The position numbers and the translations under genes are program-made. From contig CP136495.1 in NCBI GenBank assembly GCA_032768795.1, forward strand, positions 1,614,501 through 1,678,500: DNA of 64,000 nucleotides. Reading direction: 5' to 3'. This DNA comes from Tremella fuciformis. Its lineage: Eukaryota > Basidiomycota > Tremellomycetes > Tremellales > Tremellaceae. Below the pieces are notes generated by a model. It ran no database searches. It saw only the letters and a program-made list of their open reading frames with translations, and was not told the origin of the DNA. Positions 23,812 to 32,329 of the stretch are shown in pieces (within the stretch, counting starts at the first letter, position 1; the number at the start of each line of letters is the position of its first letter).

Positions 23812-23939
23812 TAGATGCTACATGCATGAGTGACGGTATTGTCAGTGTCGTAAACCTCGTAACGTGTCGTAAGGGACCGCCTGTTCCACGCTTCAACGAG
23901 TGGCACTTCGGTGTGGCGGTCAATTCATGTCAAACTTCA

Positions 23940-24305
23940 TGTCTACAATTGACCTGCAAAAGGTTTGAGAGGATCGCGATTTCAAAAATGCTGGAGATAA
24001 GGCGGATCGAACGCCTGATCTTCTCAAGAAAAACACCCTATTTGATGCAAATGAGACGCCATACCACTAGGCCATATCCCCGAGCACAAAATGAATCTGT
24101 TTTTGTCAGAATATATATCGTTACTCAAAACACAGGCTCAGGTGTGAAGAAGAGCTTGTGTTCGTGTGTTGCTTGAAGTCTCGTCTATCGCTCGAAGCCC
24201 AAGATCAGGCAAGCCTGAATTCCAAGACAGGCGTTCGATCCACCTTATCTCCAGCATTTTTGAAATCGCGATCCTCTCAAACCTTTTGCAGGTCAATTGT
24301 AGACA
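23940..24305. repeat. Inverted repeat: tRNA 3' half plus its 3' flank duplicated in reverse
   Basis: Arms 23940-24017 and 24228-24305 are reverse complements over 78 bp with one mismatch, separated by 210 bp. The left arm contains the T arm, acceptor 3' strand and Pol III terminator of the tRNA-Ala gene plus 50 bp of 3' flank. The right arm repeats all of this on the other strand, including the terminator. The single mismatch falls in the T stem of the right copy, so only the left copy belongs to an intact tRNA. Confidence 0.88.
23992..24081 (-). tRNA. tRNA-Ala(UGC) with an 18-nt intron
   Basis: On the minus strand the sequence folds as a full cloverleaf. The acceptor stem GGGGATA pairs with TATCTCC and the discriminator is A. 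The D arm is TGGCCTAGTGGTATGGC, with a good A box. The anticodon stem TCTCA/TGAGA has loop TTTGCAT after removal of an intron at 24028-24045, placed one base 3' of the anticodon (24047-24049). The T arm is AGGCG-TTCGATC-CGCCT. Spliced length is 72 nt plus CCA. A run of five T follows the 3' end (23984-23988), a Pol III terminator. Confidence 0.92.
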
Positions 24306-24861
24306 GGAAGTCCGGCTTGGGCGCCAGGGGCTTCGCGCCTCGCCGCAGCGAGGGGCTCAACCTGACTTGTGCCGGAGAGCTGCGGCCTCACGAAACCGTG
24401 CTGCCTATGGCGATGTGCAATGTTTCCTGCCTCTACTCCGACATTCTCTGCCGTTTGTTGGACTCCTGGAGTCCCGCCTCCAGCAAGTGCACCTTTTTCT
24501 TTAGCGTCTTCAACTCTCCCGCTGCCTGTCCACCAGCCACTGCGATTGACTGGGTGTTCTTTGCTGCCTCAGAGGCGTCGTATGCCGCGCGGCCCGTCTC
24601 CTGCTCGTGATGTATTGCGGTTTGAACCCCACCTTGTAATGCTCTCTGAGCAGCGCAGTGTACTCGTGGAAGTCGTCCAGCATGTTGGGTACTGAGCAGA
24701 TGTATACGGCGAGGTCGGTGTGTGACGGATCGCATAGGAACCACTTGCCGCAAGGAGAGCGGCGATGAGACACGATCCAGCGCTGATCAGTCCTGGATTT
24801 GCCTTTGCTCCTGTTGAATTCAAACGCGATGTTGTTGACGTCGGCGACGAGCTGTGCATCG

Positions 24862-25059
24862 TGTCGAGATCGGTGAACGCGAGTTGGTATGTGAGTGACT
24901 GCCTTGCTGGTCGACTGATATGCCAGGATGAGTTACCAGGTGACAGATGAATAATACATTCTTCGAAGAAGGTATCCTCTCCTTCTCAGTCTGTATATGT
25001 AGAGTTCTCACAGGTAGTCGGCTACTACGGACATGTCCGTGATGACGTATTCCATTACA
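24862..25059 (-). repeat. 3' LTR of the chromovirus
   Basis: 198 bp, sense strand starting TGTAATGG and ending TCTCGACA (TG...CA termini). Identical to the 5' LTR. The adjacent host sequence is the catcg duplication. Confidence 0.95.
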
Positions 25060-25076
25060 GTCGCCTCCTCCTTTGT
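25060..25076 (-). other. Polypurine tract
   Basis: Immediately inside the 3' LTR the sense strand reads AAAGGAGGAGGCGAC, a purine-rich run suited to prime plus-strand synthesis. Its position shows that the antisense gene region lies inside the element rather than beside a solo LTR. Confidence 0.75.
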
Positions 25077-25279
25077 GCTCGGGCGTCGCGACCGAGCCTA
25101 GCGACAGGGCGTCTCCTTGACGACGGTCGTGAGGGTGTCGACATGAGAACTGCAGAGTAGGGCGTGCAGTGACGGGCGCGGTGATATATGAACCAGCCAG
25201 GTTGGGCGCCCGTTCTTCGTCCATCTCTCTTCTTTCTTGAATCCTCGAGCGACACCCCAACTTGCCAAGTACGTTAACG

Positions 25280-26207
25280 ATGCCTGCTCGTATCTACACC
25301 GCCGCAGACGTGTCTGTATCTCCTCCTGCCTCGTACGCCATCGTCGACGCCAACGACGATTCGACTACATACCGCATAGGCAACGGTAGAACGTACCGAG
25401 CGCGACATGTCGGCTTTGACGGGACCCTCACTCAAGCCAAGAATCGGGCGGCGGTACGTGGCAGCTACTGAGTGGTATTCACTGACCAGTAGGATCTCTC
25501 CAACCAGCTATCTTCAACCTTAGCGGCGATGTCGGTTGATGAAGCTGGCCGGCACCGAGCCCATGTGATGCGCACGGCCGTGGCGTTCATAGCAGCGTGG
25601 GACGGTCGGCTGAGGATCGTAAGGGCCGCCGACAGTAAGTCTATTCCGCGATTACACAGCTTATTACCAGAGTGTAATGCCTGCGAAAAGGCTGGCAAGC
25701 CTTGTGTCGTAGCCGCTATTGTACTCCAGGGAGGCGGTTCCCGCGCAGTTTCCTCGCAAGTACTGTTTCGTTCCTGCCAGCTACGCTTACCTCAGCTGCG
25801 TGCGTTGTCACTCCCAGCATGGAGTTTCTTGCGACATCCAGCTCGGTCTTGCCCTAGGCAAACGTCCTCGGGGCACCGTTCGCGAAAGTGCCTGGCAGGA
25901 ACTGGGCTCGACTCTGCAGGATCTACGAAGCGAGCTGTCGTCTACTGACCGCATGACCGCCCATGACAAGAAGCGATGGAAGGGGTACATCGGGCGAGCC
26001 TTGTTTGTACGCTAGCATATTCGGTCACTTACGGTTGCTAATTGGTAGATAGTCGACGGATTCCAGGTCAAGACGGAGCACAGGTCTCCCAAAAGGCCAG
26101 TCGACTATTCCAAGTATAGAGGCCGCGGTGGCTATGCACAGGAGTCGGACCCATCCGACGACGAGCCGACCGATCAGGAGGACGCAGAGGCCGATGACGA
26201 TGCGTAG
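25280..26207 (+). CDS. Antisense accessory gene of the chromovirus: Cys-triad (Zn2Cys6-like) protein
   Basis: Five exons (25280-25453, 25493-25634, 25671-25705, 25749-26006, 26049-26207) give 255 aa; introns are 36-43 nt and all phases agree. The N-terminus has YRIGNGRTYRARHVGFDGTL; exon 2 encodes a helical-looking segment (HVMRTAVAFIAAWDGRLR). Exon 3 gives CNACEKAGKPC, exon 4 gives YCFVPASYAYLSCVRC and HSQHGVSC: two C-x2-C-x6-C triads, likely zinc-binding. A helical WQELGSTLQDLRSEL follows, then a basic patch (RSPKRPVDYSKYRGRGG) and an acidic Asp/Glu tail. A TATA-like tatat sits at 25185-25189. The gene is read opposite to gag-pol and converges on it. No known enzyme domain is visible. The third intron, in the linker between triads, is the least certain. 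Confidence 0.72.
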
Positions 26208-26320
26208 TAGGTGTTGTAGATTGGCGCTTCCTTCCTCTTCCGGGTGGTGTTGTACATGATTATGCGTCCTCTTGCATGTAAAGACCGTCGCGTAGTTGGA
26301 ACAACGAGTGTGGGTTATTG

Positions 26321-26344
26321 ACAGGTACGCTCACGCGTACCTGT
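26321..26344. terminator. Hairpin at the convergence of pol and the antisense gene
   Basis: Perfect 10-bp arms (acaggtacgc / gcgtacctgt) around a 4-nt loop. It overlaps the pol stop codon (26331-26333) and lies 114 bp beyond the antisense gene's stop. It could mark or separate convergent 3' ends; this role is inference. Confidence 0.45.
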
Positions 26345-29300
26345 TAGGTACGAATCTCTTTCTCCTACTCTGGCTCTCCGAGCTTGAGTAGGCGTCGTAC
26401 ATGGTGGTGAAGGCAGGGTCGCTTTCCACCTCTGCCGCTGGTTCCCATGTACTGTCACTGATAGGCCATCCTATCCACTTGATACGGTAGTGTTTGGAGG
26501 TAATCCCATGTTTGTCCTTGACCATTCGTTCGTCAAGGATCGCCTCGTAGGTATAGCCGTTGTCATCTAACACTATGTCGCTGACGGGCGACTGCGTAGG
26601 TTGTAACTGGCTAGTACTTGCTTCCTCTGAGGCGTAGAAGGGCTTCAGGTATTCCACGTTGATCACGTCGTGGATCCTGTAGGACTCGGGGAGGTGCAGC
26701 TTGTATGCGTTGTCGTTGACCTTTGCTGCCACCTTGAATGGTCCTAGCCACCGGTTATCTAGCTTGGCTGATGTCCTAGCTCCTTTGTAGTTTCGAGCAG
26801 AAAGTAAGACTAGGTCGCCCACTTTGAATGTCTGTAACCGGCGTTTACGGTCGTATTGCGGTTTGTTCTGTGCCCGTGCGTGCTTGATCTGTTCTTGAAG
26901 GTACTTGAATCGTTCAAATATCCTGTGTGTATACGTCACCCCCTCCTCGCTTTCGTGCGAGGAACTTCCCAATGGGTCTGTCATATTCTGCCTAGGGGTG
27001 TAACCGTACCAAGCATCGTAGGGGGTCATTTTGGTGGTTCCGTGCACTGTGGTGTTGTATACGAATTCTGCTGTGGGAAGCAGCACGGACCAGTCGTCCT
27101 GTTCGTAGTTGGCATATACGCGTAGGTACTGACCTAGCCACTTGTTGACTATTTCGGTTTGCCCATCCGTTTGTGGGTGGTACGCAGTAGAGAACTTGAG
27201 GTCACAGCCCAGCTTACTGGTGACTGTGCGCCAGAAAGCTGACACGTACTGTGCTCCTCTGTCCGAGATGATACGGTCTGGTAACCCCGTTCTTGGGTAG
27301 ACTTTCGTAAGAAACGCCTCTGCCAGGGTAGGGGCGTCGAGCTTGTCGATAGGTATGAAGATCGCCGCCTTCGTTAGCTGGTCTACCCAGACGCTGATGT
27401 TGGTATAGCCCTTGGAGTCCGGTAATTTGGTGATGTAGTCGGTAGATACGGTTGACCAGGGTCGCTCCGCCACGGGTATGTCTAGCAGTAATCCTGGTTG
27501 TAGTTGGTTGGTATGTTTGGTCTTTTGGCACGTTTCGCAATGCTTTACCCATGTTTTGACGTCTCGTCGCATCCTCGGCCACCAGAATCTTGCAAGTAGC
27601 CTGGATGTGGTCTTGGCCACCCCCGGGTGGCCAGCCGTCGGTAGGTTATGAGCCCATATGAGGACCGTGGTTCGTTGCTTCTCGGGCACGATAGGTAGGT
27701 CGCGGTAGTAGAAGAGGCCGTCCTTGTGTTTGTATTCTTCGGGATGGCTTTCCGTAAGAGCCACGTATTTTTGTTGTTCGTGCACATCCATGGCGCCTTT
27801 AAAGTCTTCTTGAGCCATAGGGTCCTTGTATTCGACCCTAGTTGCCAGGTACTGTGCTGAAGAAAGCAACGCCTTGAAGTTGTGCGCGTTGAGTTCTGGT
27901 GACAAGGTGGTTGCTTTGGTGTCCGTAGGTCGATAGTCTGGTCGTCTGGACAGGGCATCTGGCTTGGTAGCTTGTTTGCCTGGCCTATATTGGATGACAA
28001 AGTCGAAATCGGCCATGTACTCGCTCCATCTAGCTTGCCTCCTTGTCAATTGCTTGGTTGTTAAGAAGTACTCTAGACTTCTGTGATCGGATAGTACGAC
28101 CACTCGTACTCGGGTACCTTCGAGGTAATGTCGCCAACTCTTGAATGCGTACACGATGGCTAGGAACTCCTTGTCGTGAACTGGATAGTTGAGTTCTGCC
28201 GGATCCATCTTCCGAGAAGCATATGCGATGGGTCTGGTTGTACCATCTGGGTAGGTGTGTGACAGGATCGCACCCAGAGCGTAGTCCGACGCGTCCGTTT
28301 CTAGTAATAGGGGAAGCTTTGGGTCGTAGTGGCTGAGTACGGGAGCCGTAGTCATCGCTCGCTTGAGAGAATCGAAAGCGTCCTGCTGTTTGGGTCCCCA
28401 TTGGAAGGGCGTTCCCTTCTTGGTTAAGTCGTGTAAGGATTTGGCTATTACCGAAAAGTTCCTGATAAATCTGCGGTAGAAGTTGGCGAACCCTACAAAT
28501 GATTGTGTCTCCTTCAAGTTCGTAGGCGTGGGCCAGTCTTGTACCGCCTCCACCTTCTTTGGGTCCATCTTGATGCCGTTTTTGTTAAGAACGAAGCCCA
28601 GGAACTCCACCTCGTTGCTGTGGAATTGGCATTTCGAGAGTTTGGCGAATAGCTTATACTCTCGTAGTCGTCGCAGGACTTCCTGTACGTGGCGGGTATG
28701 GTGTTCCAGATCTTTGGAGTACACCAATATATCGTCGAGGTATACAGCCACGTACTTGTCGAGTAGGTCGTGGAAGACGTGGTTGATAAATAGCTGGAAC
28801 GAGCCTGGTGCATTGCAGAGCCCGAAGGGCATGACCAGGTACTCGTATTGTCCGAAGGGTGTGCGGAAGGCTGTCTTCCACTCATCCCCCTCCGCTATGC
28901 GGACGAGGTTGTATGCTCCCCGTAGGTCTAACTTGGTAAACACGGTCGACCCACGTATTTGGTCGATTACGTCGCCTATCAGGGGCAAAGGGTATTTGTT
29001 CTTGATTGTCATGGCGTTGAGCTTGCGGTAATCGACGCATAATCGCAGACTTCCGTCCTTCTTTTTGACGAATAGGACTGGTGCTCCTGCGGGGGATCGT
29101 GACTCTCTGATGAAGCCTTTATCCAGGTTTTCTCGCAGGTACGCCATTAGTTCTTCCCTTTCTCGTGGGCTAAGTGCGTAGATAGGCCCAGCTGGTGGTA
29201 CCTTGTCCGAGCTCAGTTGGATGGCATGGTCGAATTGCCGATGTTCTGGTAGTTTATCGGCCTGTCCTTTATCGAATACGTCTTTGTAGTGTGTATATTC

Positions 29301-31583
29301 GGCAGGTAGCTCTGTCTCAGTAGGCGGTTCCGCCGTCGTAATGGCGGTGTAGAGCCACGCAGTGGCCTGGTCTGATGTCTTGTCTGTTGTGTCCCGTGGC
29401 GCTAGAGTTCTCGCGCTCCAGTCTACCACAGGCTGCACTTTGTCCAGAAAGGGCATGCCTAAGATCAAGTGTGCTATGCGTATAGGGGAGACTATGAAGT
29501 CGGCGTGATAAGGTTCGAACCCCCTTCCCAGTAGGACTGTAAGCTGTACTCGGTGGGTTAAGAGTCCGTACTCGGATACCCTGCCGTCCGCCATTACCAA
29601 TGGCGTTGGTCGTTTGAGTTTTGTCATGGGGAGGTGATGTCGAGCCACATACTCGTCGTCGACGAAGTTGGACGTCGCTCCCGTATCTAGGAGGGCCCTA
29701 GCGGTCTCTCCAGGGATTTGTGATAGGCCAATTGGGACGTTGAACAGCCTTGTAGGCGTTTCATAATTGGCGCGTACGCCGTCCTCTTTTGATGTTCTTT
29801 TGGACCCTTCGAGGGGTTCCGTTTTGGTTAAGTACAAGGCAGACGGATCCGCCCTGCACGTCGCCTTCCTAATGTAATTGCGTACTACGTTCTGTGTTTT
29901 AGCTACATACGTCTTCTGTTCCGCCTGTTCAGGCGTCAAATTCTTCTCGTTCCCCCCTTGAATTTCTTGATAGCCTAGGTCCGGTATCACTTTGTGTAGA
30001 CCTTTGTATTTGGCCATTACCCGGTTGAACTTGTCTCTCAAGTTTCTTTTCTGGGGCTCGCTTGGTGGGGTGAGTCTGACGTTCACTCTCTCTGTCGCCA
30101 TCGAACCTTCTTGGCTGTTGACGTCTGCGTAATCGCCTGTTACGTGGTTCTCTGTGGTCTGATCGGTTGTGTCGGTTTGGGCTACGTTGATCCGGTGTGG
30201 CGGTAACTTGTTCTGTGGTCGAGTCCAACAGTTGTTGATCGTGTGGCCCATTTTCCCACAATAGGTGCAAGCCCCTGCCTCTATACGGGCCTTACGTTCT
30301 TCCTCCGAGAGAGGTCCTCTCGGCTGTTGCGTGAACGTCCTGCCACTTTGAGGCTTAGGGGTTGTAGACTTGTTCGTCGTGCGTGGTGGTGACTCTCTGT
30401 TACTTGCAGTGTCCAATCCCGCTTTTGGGCGGAAATGCCCTCGTACTTGTTGACTAGGGGTGTTGAATCGGGTATTTCCTTGGTGTCGGCCCGGCGGGTT
30501 TGGTCCCTGAAATGGGTGCTTGGGGTGCAACGCACGGACTTCTCGGTCTGCGTCGTCAATAGACAGGGTACGCTCGACTAGGTCGTTGAAGTCGCTGAAT
30601 GTAGGGCGTGGTCGTTGCGTCATGAGTTCGCGTTGCAGGTACTCACGCAATCCCTTGTAAAAGGCCATGCACTGCGTATCCGGTGACTGATTGGTCCGTG
30701 CTAGGATAGTACGGAACTTTACTACGTACTCAGAGGCCGACATGTTGCCTTGTCTGAGTCGGTCCAGTTCAAAGTAGGCCGAGAATTCCTCATGGTGACG
30801 GCCAAAGGTTCGTCGAAGCTCGGTCATAAACCCTACCAGGGTGGTAGGTTCTTGATTGTTGTCGACTAGGCCAGTGTACCACTGCTCCGCCTCGTCGCGT
30901 AGGTAGCCAGAAGCAAAGATCACTTTGAGCTCTTCGGTCGGGTAGATAGGTGCTGCGATTCGCAGGTATCTTTCGACTTGGTGCACAAAAGCATCCAGCT
31001 TCAGTCGGTCTAAGTCGCCTCTAAAGACATCCGGCTTCTTGATATTCTTGGCGGCCTCGGCGGCCACTTTGATGTCCACCGGTTGATTCAGCCCCGTAGT
31101 TGTCATGTACGGTTCTGTAGTCGACGTCCTTGGCTGTGTAGGTTCTCGGACAGGCTGTCTTCGTGCCTGCTCCATCTGTTGGAGCTGCATCTCGATCCTA
31201 GTTCGTTGGTCGAGTAGCTCTTGATACGTGGGACCTTGGCTAAGGTGCGGGGGATTGCCCCGCACAAAAGGGGTAACTCGGGGAATTTCTTCCTCCGCTA
31301 GTCGAGTTGATAGATAGTGCGAACCATGTACTCCGTTCGTATCCACCGGGTACGTAGTCGGTGGAGCCTCGAGTGGAGCGGTTCTCGAGTCGCTGTTGCC
31401 AGTCGTCGGCTGTTCTTCGAGTGGTTGCTCGAGGTTGGACAACGGCGACGAGCGAGTAGTAGGTGACAAAGGTTGAGGGTGTATCTGAAGGCTTGTGTGG
31501 CTGTTATCGGCAGGTAGGGTCGCCTGGGCGTCGATTCCCGGCGCTCCTCCTGTTGGATTCTGTCTCGTAGGTCTTCCTGACAT
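26331..31583 (-). CDS. Gag-Pol polyprotein with C-terminal chromodomain
   Basis: One uninterrupted frame of about 1,750 residues; no gag/pol frameshift. The start is the first Met after the 5' LTR (MSGRPTRQNP), 37 nt inside the LTR boundary. Gag-type helices occur near residues 170-330 (AEQWYTGL, FMTELRRTFG). A zinc knuckle CTYCGKMGHTINNC lies near 440. The aspartic protease motif ALLDTGAT is near 630. Reverse transcriptase includes YLDDILVYS (~950); RNase H has ETDASDYALGA (~1,095). Integrase has the HHCC zinc region (~1,310-1,350) and the catalytic acidic residues in TDYITKL, SDRGAQY and TDGQTEIV (~1,380-1,480). The chromodomain is near 1,670-1,730 (YRIKWIGWPISDSTWEP). All catalytic motifs are present, so the enzyme set looks functional. 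Confidence 0.97.
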   Translation of the reverse strand: MSGRPTRQNPTGGAPGIDAQATLPADNSHTSLQIHPQPLSPTTRSSPLSNLEQPLEEQPTTGNSDSRTAPLEAPPTTYPVDTNGVHGSHYLSTRLAEEEIPRVTPFVRGNPPHLSQGPTYQELLDQRTRIEMQLQQMEQARRQPVREPTQPRTSTTEPYMTTTGLNQPVDIKVAAEAAKNIKKPDVFRGDLDRLKLDAFVHQVERYLRIAAPIYPTEELKVIFASGYLRDEAEQWYTGLVDNNQEPTTLVGFMTELRRTFGRHHEEFSAYFELDRLRQGNMSASEYVVKFRTILARTNQSPDTQCMAFYKGLREYLQRELMTQRPRPTFSDFNDLVERTLSIDDADREVRALHPKHPFQGPNPPGRHQGNTRFNTPSQQVRGHFRPKAGLDTASNRESPPRTTNKSTTPKPQSGRTFTQQPRGPLSEEERKARIEAGACTYCGKMGHTINNCWTRPQNKLPPHRINVAQTDTTDQTTENHVTGDYADVNSQEGSMATERVNVRLTPPSEPQKRNLRDKFNRVMAKYKGLHKVIPDLGYQEIQGGNEKNLTPEQAEQKTYVAKTQNVVRNYIRKATCRADPSALYLTKTEPLEGSKRTSKEDGVRANYETPTRLFNVPIGLSQIPGETARALLDTGATSNFVDDEYVARHHLPMTKLKRPTPLVMADGRVSEYGLLTHRVQLTVLLGRGFEPYHADFIVSPIRIAHLILGMPFLDKVQPVVDWSARTLAPRDTTDKTSDQATAWLYTAITTAEPPTETELPAEYTHYKDVFDKGQADKLPEHRQFDHAIQLSSDKVPPAGPIYALSPREREELMAYLRENLDKGFIRESRSPAGAPVLFVKKKDGSLRLCVDYRKLNAMTIKNKYPLPLIGDVIDQIRGSTVFTKLDLRGAYNLVRIAEGDEWKTAFRTPFGQYEYLVMPFGLCNAPGSFQLFINHVFHDLLDKYVAVYLDDILVYSKDLEHHTRHVQEVLRRLREYKLFAKLSKCQFHSNEVEFLGFVLNKNGIKMDPKKVEAVQDWPTPTNLKETQSFVGFANFYRRFIRNFSVIAKSLHDLTKKGTPFQWGPKQQDAFDSLKRAMTTAPVLSHYDPKLPLLLETDASDYALGAILSHTYPDGTTRPIAYASRKMDPAELNYPVHDKEFLAIVYAFKSWRHYLEGTRVRVVVLSDHRSLEYFLTTKQLTRRQARWSEYMADFDFVIQYRPGKQATKPDALSRRPDYRPTDTKATTLSPELNAHNFKALLSSAQYLATRVEYKDPMAQEDFKGAMDVHEQQKYVALTESHPEEYKHKDGLFYYRDLPIVPEKQRTTVLIWAHNLPTAGHPGVAKTTSRLLARFWWPRMRRDVKTWVKHCETCQKTKHTNQLQPGLLLDIPVAERPWSTVSTDYITKLPDSKGYTNISVWVDQLTKAAIFIPIDKLDAPTLAEAFLTKVYPRTGLPDRIISDRGAQYVSAFWRTVTSKLGCDLKFSTAYHPQTDGQTEIVNKWLGQYLRVYANYEQDDWSVLLPTAEFVYNTTVHGTTKMTPYDAWYGYTPRQNMTDPLGSSSHESEEGVTYTHRIFERFKYLQEQIKHARAQNKPQYDRKRRLQTFKVGDLVLLSARNYKGARTSAKLDNRWLGPFKVAAKVNDNAYKLHLPESYRIHDVINVEYLKPFYASEEASTSQLQPTQSPVSDIVLDDNGYTYEAILDERMVKDKHGITSKHYRIKWIGWPISDSTWEPAAEVESDPAFTTMYDAYSSSESQSRRKRFVPNRYA

Positions 31584-31604
31584 ACCTGTCGTCCACAAGT
31601 ATGG

Positions 31605-31617
31605 GAAGAATGTATTA
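31605..31617 (-). promoter_or_regulatory. Putative self-priming primer-binding site
   Basis: Two bases inside the 5' LTR, the sense strand reads TAATACATTCTTC. This 13-mer is perfectly complementary to the LTR segment GAAGAATGTATTA (31710-31722 on the window strand), which lies about 34 nt downstream of a TATA-like element and so probably at the 5' end of the transcript. This is the arrangement of Tf1-type self-priming. I did not find an obvious match to a tRNA 3' end. Confidence 0.65.
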
Positions 31618-31619
31618 AC

Positions 31620-31817
31620 TGTCGAGATCGGTGAACGCGAGTTGGTATGTGAGTGACTGCCTTGCTGGTCGACTGATATGCCAGGATGAGTTACCAGGTG
31701 ACAGATGAATAATACATTCTTCGAAGAAGGTATCCTCTCCTTCTCAGTCTGTATATGTAGAGTTCTCACAGGTAGTCGGCTACTACGGACATGTCCGTGA
31801 TGACGTATTCCATTACA
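31620..31817 (-). repeat. 5' LTR of the chromovirus, with promoter
   Basis: 198 bp, identical to the other LTR. In the sense direction a TATA-like catataca (window 31750-31757) precedes a 12-bp palindrome TTCTTCGAAGAA (31717-31728) that spans the predicted transcription start. The right flank begins with the catcg target duplication. Confidence 0.95.
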
Positions 31818-32329
31818 CATCGCTTTCATATTGCCCAGCGATATACGTGGCGATGGTTGTCCCAAAGGAGACCGGGAGAGTTCTATCACGGCCTCATCCT
31901 CCGTTGGGACGTGGTCGCGGGTGACCTTCTTGTCGACCGTGAGGAACTCAAATTTGGCGATGGTCGAACGGTCGTTGGTCTCTAGATGACTCTAAAGACA
32001 AGGCTACTTGGCCTGACTCACCTTTCTTCACTCTTGCGTGCAGACTATGTGTAAGTACAAACGAAAAAGAAGTGAGCCGTCTAGCAAAAGACATCAACTG
32101 GTTAGTGATGGGTCATCGCCGTCTCTGGGACCGTGCACGCGGGCATCGCTTACAAGGTTTATTGTTCTGCCACAGCGAAGGGTTGTTCGGGCTTATTCCC
32201 ACCCGACCCGTGCCATATATACTACATGTGTATCGCACAACTTGCCTCAGACATATGGAAACCTGCGAAATTATAGCTACAGAGAAGTAAAAGGGCCGGT
32301 CGAGCGCTAACTCGGTCTTCGCCCCGCGA

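Follow-up and report, generated by a model that had tools for sequence, protein, structure and literature searches.

A predicted spliced antisense gene with two cysteine triads between pol and the 3′ LTR of a Tremella fuciformis chromovirus

The question raised by this locus is whether a spliced open frame that lies on the strand opposite to the gag-pol of a fungal retrotransposon is a gene of the element itself and, if so, what its protein may do. The window, that is, the whole stretch of 64,000 nucleotides of Tremella fuciformis DNA that was analysed, contains a Ty3/gypsy chromovirus at 24862-31817 with transcription on the minus strand. The element has the LTRs, target duplication, gag, protease-RT-RNase H-integrase order and C-terminal chromodomain of this class. 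The 3′ LTR (24862-25059) and the 5′ LTR (31620-31817), both on the minus strand, are identical, measure 198 bp and have TG...CA ends; sequence comparison places the target-site duplication CATCG at 24857-24861 on the 3′ LTR side and at 31818-31822 on the 5′ LTR side. A polypurine tract, located by eye at about 25060-25075 on the minus strand, abuts the 3′ LTR. A single frame, listed as an open reading frame at 26331-31889 (minus strand), encodes the gag, protease, RT, RNase H, integrase and C-terminal chromo domains, with the end of the pol stop at 26331; the frame stays open past the 5′ LTR, and position 31889 is the frame end rather than a mapped start. Among the 120 matches listed of 4912, relatives of gag-pol are found in Tremellales sp. 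Uapishka_1 (49%) and Trichosporon asahii (43-47%), and in Ustilago, Microbotryum and Rhizoctonia too, while a scan of IMG/VR with gag-pol found no relative. The spliced open frame on the plus strand starts with an ATG at 25280, closes with a stop whose last base is 26207, and lies between the pol stop and the polypurine tract and 3′ LTR. Since the CATCG copies sit outside both identical LTRs, the gene lies inside the mobile unit, as a preliminary description of this DNA had proposed.

The final model of the gene has five exons and 256 amino acids with two Cys triads, and all of its parts are on the plus strand. A leader of 220 nt (25060-25279), the presumed promoter or 5′ UTR, separates the 3′ LTR from the antisense ATG and holds a candidate TATA-like GATATATGA, noticed by eye, near 25184. 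Exon 1 (25280-25453) begins with the ATG and is followed by predicted intron 1 (25454-25492; 39 nt, GT-AG, phase 0), and exon 2 (25493-25634) by predicted intron 2 (25635-25670; 36 nt, GT-AG, phase 1). Exon 3 (25671-25755) encodes the first Cys triad, C-x2-C-x6-C, and precedes predicted intron 3 (25756-25795; 40 nt, GC-AG, phase 2); exon 4 (25796-26006) encodes the second triad, C-x2-C-x7-C, and precedes predicted intron 4 (26007-26048; 42 nt, GT-AG, phase 0). Exon 5 (26049-26207) encodes an acidic C-terminal tail and the stop. Within 25060-26330, the minus strand has no stop-free stretch longer than 108 codons, and at most 55 codons follow a Met among the four longest such stretches.

The preliminary description had four canonical introns with consistent phases. 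The open five-exon frame stands and an all-GT-AG solution exists, in which intron 3 would be 25760-25817 (phase 0, 250 amino acids), a choice that removes the residues CVRC; the canonical form of intron 3 is the part that probably fails. Two models of this intron, the all-GT-AG one and the GC-AG one, keep the frame. The GC-AG intron, with donor GCAAGT and acceptor CTTACCTCAG, keeps the second Cys triad, and its size fits that of the other introns. It is preferred because in L030, a member of a second family described below, a GT-AG intron is predicted just ahead of the second triad that agrees with it in codon position and phase, and the sequence thus makes 25756-25795 the more likely version. 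Against it, one of the 19 complete copies in the genome (L018) is without the GC donor, a change that is synonymous under the GT-AG model; the donor GCAAGT is present in the other 18 and the acceptor in all 19. In introns 1, 2 and 4 every donor and acceptor is intact in all 19 copies, those of intron 1 being GTACGT and AG. A provisional intron 3 at 25709-25748, whose product of 256 amino acids matches the final model in length by coincidence, was dropped because the fixed changes at 25711-25738 lie at third positions of codons, and are synonymous, when exon 3 is read without a break. The queries of the Pfam, protein and own-genome protein searches reported below were translations of this provisional splice model instead of the final one.

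The status of the frame as a gene rests on its copies. A 1401-base block was searched against the genome (28.1 Mb, 11 contigs), with 40 of 46 candidates scored, and the counts are thus lower bounds. At least 19 copies match all 1401 bases, and the remaining 21 scored matches cover short parts of the query at its LTR end. The complete copies form roughly two subfamilies of 12 and 7, with L021 intermediate, and their target duplications differ. The presence of the gene in other copies had been set as a test beforehand; in each of the 19 complete copies found the antisense frame is open, with no coding indel or premature stop under either splice model. Across these copies 37 of the 771 exon bases are variable, and the changes are 27 synonymous and 10 non-synonymous, against an expected synonymous fraction of 0.25 (one-sided P 1.1e-9, only a guide, because the sites share ancestry). 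The same exons read in the two shifted frames give synonymous to non-synonymous ratios of 7:30 and 4:33, with 10 and 11 stops. Likewise, three between-subfamily pairs have a dN/dS of 0.06-0.09 under the GT-AG model, and two pairs inside the smaller subfamily have 0.14 and 0.13; one further pair has no non-synonymous change. Variable sites are less frequent in exons (37/771, 4.8%) than in introns (16/157, 10.2%; Fisher P 0.013), and the gap before the pol stop has 12 in 123 (9.8%). By itself, low variation does not single out coding sequence, because the LTR (7/198, 3.5%) and the leader (8/220, 3.6%) both vary less than the exons. Judged from this pattern of substitution, the antisense gene is under purifying selection, and the codon constraint that the preliminary description asked for is thus borne out.

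Three copies of the window element (L022, L024 and L026; G000:C6:760113-771126, C1:5063806-5083780 and C1:7448280-7462686) have gag-pol matches split by kilobases, which suggests nested insertions; their antisense frame is open despite the split.

A second family, L030/L031, has 48% pol identity to the window element, LTRs of 313 bp and its own target duplications. It carries a plus-strand antisense gene at the same place, with a start 219 nt inside the LTR compared with 220 nt in the window element; the first intron of the L030 gene has several possible acceptors. The proteins of the two families are weakly similar; compared as a pair, they give 28% over 85 amino acids round the Cys region, with E=0.02. 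Two predicted introns correspond between them. One, in phase 2, falls in the codon that directly precedes the opening Cys of triad 2; the other, in phase 0, lies 58 residues after triad 2 in the window element and 63 in L030. Between L030 and L031 the antisense gene differs at 17 codons, 10 synonymous and 7 non-synonymous, which is a weaker sign of constraint.

Similar frames were surveyed downstream of other chromovirus pol genes of the genome. These came from a genome search with the Chromo family, in which 150 of 213 candidates were scored, and from relatives of pol, of which 39 out of 464 were. Twenty downstream stretches of about 2.6 kb were picked by eye according to their score and length groups; as L035/L036 and L033/L034 are close pairs, the stretches do not count as fully independent. 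Searched for in the first 1600 nt, a strict double-triad pattern occurred on the antisense strand of 9 of the 20 and on the sense strand of none, compared with 0.05% of 2000 shuffled stretches per strand and none of 34 window tiles outside the element. A looser pattern applied to whole stretches, without a shuffle control, had matches on the antisense strand of 10 of the 20 and on the sense strand of none. Counted together with the window family and L030, in which an intron splits the triads, an antisense double-triad gene is present in 12 of 22. The pattern is blind to genes with an intron between the triads, and its misses do not prove absence. In tblastn with eight queries no match was found in the ten pattern-negative stretches at E up to 0.01, and the groups of L032, L037 and L039-L045 showed no such frame by either the pattern or tblastn. 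Second copies point the same way in these groups, as the antisense double-triad frame was not found in those of L037 and L032; in the L033/L034 group, the second copy L073 has the antisense frame. L034 lacks the corresponding stretch, which in L073 bears the frame and extends from the pol stop to a block farther downstream; by its sequence L034 seems to be a deletion copy.

When the trait is mapped on a 22-row RT tree, 3 changes suffice, compared with a mean of 7.5 in shuffles, none of 500 shuffles being as low, and the clade L039-L045 is negative throughout; in this count L034 is scored as lacking the gene though its group has it, and L032 is one very long branch. If the gene is truly absent in the negative groups, it is not needed for transposition in general. 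The position between pol and the 3′ LTR has been established through mapped LTRs in the window family and L030. It is likely for L049 also, judged by repeats, as the block from about L049:1088 onward recurs 12 kb upstream and in further places; a corresponding repeat was not found for L051. Within the L036 group, 18 of 24 scored matches span the whole region at 98-100% identity, as a measure of coverage rather than of the frame in each copy. The dN/dS of L035 against L036 is about 0.16, and between L033 and L073 the synonymous sites are nearly saturated (dS 2.8). Two antisense double-triad frames are present downstream of pol in each of L050 and L051, as if the gene had been duplicated there. 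Downstream of L032 lies another antisense frame, 614 amino acids from stop to stop and about 0.5 kb past the pol stop, which by eye resembles a copia-type polymerase and probably belongs to a neighbouring or nested element.

The nature of the protein can be approached from its cysteines. Zn2Cys6 proteins have a pattern of about C-x2-C-x6-C-x5-16-C-x2-C-x6-8-C, and the window protein has C-x2-C-x6-C-x17-C-x2-C-x7-C, with an inter-triad spacing of 17, just beyond that range. In an alignment of the Cys region the six Cys are invariant in 10 rows, which were selected by that very pattern; the spacing is variable and the second triad is shortened in other families. Profile searches of PDB placed GAL4 first, at E=4.4e-5 with profile A2 (without the window protein) and E=0.0016 with A1 (including it), a result of the group, as a profile of seven proteins, rather than of the window protein alone. 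These E values are not to be over-read, because A2 also matches a designed helical protein (6e-5) and other Zn2Cys6 proteins (ALCR, LEU3, PUT3, HAP1, CYP1 and RSC3) score at 0.01 or worse. With Pfam, the window protein in its provisional splice model reached E=0.31 and 11.6 bits against Zn_clus, below the cut-off of 21; among nine relatives L051 alone was listed (E=0.12), below the cut-off as well, and the provisional model had no match to TRP28 (PF04195) up to E=1. The proteins of this group resemble GAL4-type Zn2Cys6 proteins in having six Cys in two triads, at the variable spacing just given, and in the first profile match, and differ from them in falling below the Pfam cut-off, in their variable second triad and in being encoded by retrotransposons. 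The two triads together with the acidic C-terminal tail suggest a small Zn2Cys6-like (GAL4-type) nuclear protein.

The protein search with A2 gave two proteins at E up to 0.1, both on short contigs: P0003, identical to the L048 frame over 214 amino acids, and P0004, 78% identical to the L033 frame; a structure prediction of P0004 aligned with P0003 had a mean pLDDT of 45 and was unusable. The search with the window protein (provisional model) gave as its sole match at E up to 1 P0002, which is 96% identical to the unspliced window frame. An own-genome protein search, with the provisional model and all 40 candidates scored, found besides the element copies only L028 and L029 (E 0.02 and 0.04). 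Both were set aside: the L028 match has the look of a chance one, and L029, which to the eye is a host protein of Zn2Cys6 type, may share the motif alone.

For brtn, the antisense gene of the Botrytis element Boty, Zhao et al. 2011 is reportedly the source cited. The gene lies between pol and the 3′ LTR (PMC7264820), and the opinion in the preliminary description that nothing alike was known in fungi is not supported. Boty also has a CHROMO domain in its gag-pol (PMC4227169), and antisense genes at this place are on record for plants as well as for this chromovirus (PMC7264820; PMC11963269; PMC4227169; PMC8365987). Boty, of Botrytis cinerea and Sclerotinia, resembles the window element as a fungal LTR element with gag-pol, CHROMO and an antisense gene between pol and the 3′ LTR. 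It differs in its ascomycete host, and the likeness to BRTN is one of gene place and orientation, by description; the window element adds a predicted spliced double Cys-triad gene and similar frames by many chromovirus pol genes of one genome. The plant genes, termed aORF-3R, include Grande gene23, RIRE2, Retand (with a TRP28 domain) and PvRetro13; the sources describe them as present in most copies, the Grande protein as nuclear and TRP28 as predicted to bind DNA (PMC7264820; PMC11963269). The gene studied here shares with them the position on the opposite strand between the pol stop and the 3′ LTR, found in the window element family and L030, and the conservation in most family copies (all 19 complete copies found). 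It differs from them in its four predicted introns and Zn2Cys6-like pattern, the plant proteins having other domains. No established function is known so far for the extra antisense genes of LTR retrotransposons (PMC7264820; PMC11963269).

Among the best-ranked titles and abstract openings of the open-access literature, with subscription papers mostly outside it, none concerns an antisense gene of a fungal LTR element that is spliced or has Cys triads, which is weak evidence of absence. Similarly, the word ‘antisense’ is absent from the main text of two surveys of fungal LTR elements (PMC2864245; PMC3248453), the former having an unspecified ‘add. ORF’ in a figure legend, and two other papers add nothing on spliced or Cys-triad antisense genes of such elements (PMC5408684; PMC12810828). 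What seems new is that predicted introns are combined with a double Cys triad of GAL4-like kind in a gene type that recurs by the chromovirus pol genes of one genome.

A retroviral parallel is HBZ of HTLV-1, a spliced antisense nuclear regulator from the 3′ LTR side (PMC10186651). The window gene, spliced by prediction, resembles HBZ (and APH-2, -3 and -4) in being antisense and on the 3′ LTR side; HBZ differs in being a bZIP protein, not a zinc cluster, of a retrovirus, and the comparison is one of analogy, implying no homology. The explanation to which we give an even chance is an old accessory gene of the window element, antisense and spliced, whose product is probably a Zn2Cys6-like nuclear regulator acting on the element's own LTR or leader. 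Transcription antisense to gag-pol would begin close to the inner border of the 3′ LTR, and the five exons would be spliced to give the protein of 256 amino acids. This would bind DNA, most plausibly the LTR or leader of the element itself, and once bound would tune sense transcription or the timing of transposition, as the spliced antisense HBZ does on HTLV-1. We infer the transcription, splicing, zinc binding, DNA binding and regulatory role of the gene; a regulator acting on its own LTR appears most likely from the domain resemblance, the place of the gene and the HBZ analogy. The introns would survive retrotransposition since the packaged genomic RNA is the complementary strand, which carries them as their reverse complement and cannot splice them, a reasoning of the preliminary description that we find sound. 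Hence this would be a clear case where introns persist inside a retrotransposon, the gene being on the antisense strand. A wider proposal, in which our confidence falls a little short of even, is that basidiomycete chromoviruses share an ancient spliced antisense family of GAL4-like zinc-cluster regulators, an independently evolved counterpart of HBZ with its expression starting on the 3′ LTR side; some lineages (L050, L051) would have duplicated the gene and others lost it. Strong purifying selection, a DNA-binding-type pattern and recurrence in one small fungal genome make the role of an antisense accessory gene testable in fungi.

The antisense protein may instead be real and work in assembly, nuclear import or integration targeting, as a partner of the integrase with its chromodomain or of the nucleocapsid, and not in transcription. 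The chromodomain of the element and the small Cys proteins of some families (L049, L051), with a C-terminus that looks helical by eye, would suit such a role; the Cys domain, which resembles GAL4-type clusters, would not, nor would the lack of an insertion preference in a small test, the differing target duplications of the copies, or a tRNA-like gene present in one of 8 loci with about 1.4 kb of LTR-side flank (the window copy) and in none of 11 with about 0.4 kb. We regard this as unlikely, and a little more so the proposal that an antisense transcript, its protein or both hold down sense expression as a repressor or copy-number control, kept for lowering damage to the host. HBZ, APH-2, -3 and -4 of deltaretroviruses act against viral expression or LTR activity (PMC10186651), and a plus-strand transcript would be complementary to the 3′ end of the genomic RNA; antisense RNA alone is not enough, because selection acts on the protein sequence (27:10). 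A recently captured host gene carried as cargo, which the preliminary description had also suggested, is improbable: predicted introns like those of host genes and the resemblance to a fungal transcription-factor domain speak for it, yet the two weak own-genome matches beyond the element copies (provisional model) and the antisense double-triad frames by many diverged chromovirus pol genes fit it poorly. A chance open frame, or a remnant without coding function, is the least probable of all, since the short exons and the single near-copy P0002 among protein matches weigh little beside selection, frame specificity and recurrence across families.

Returning to the window element and its surroundings, targeting of the element to tRNA genes is not supported on the limited flank of the loci just counted. 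The tRNA-like gene itself was called by ARAGORN at 23992-24081 on the minus strand, with an ambiguous anticodon, about half a kilobase outside the element. It has an inverted partial copy, with 23934-24017 and 24228-24311 lying 210 bp apart and 98% complementary over 84 nt.
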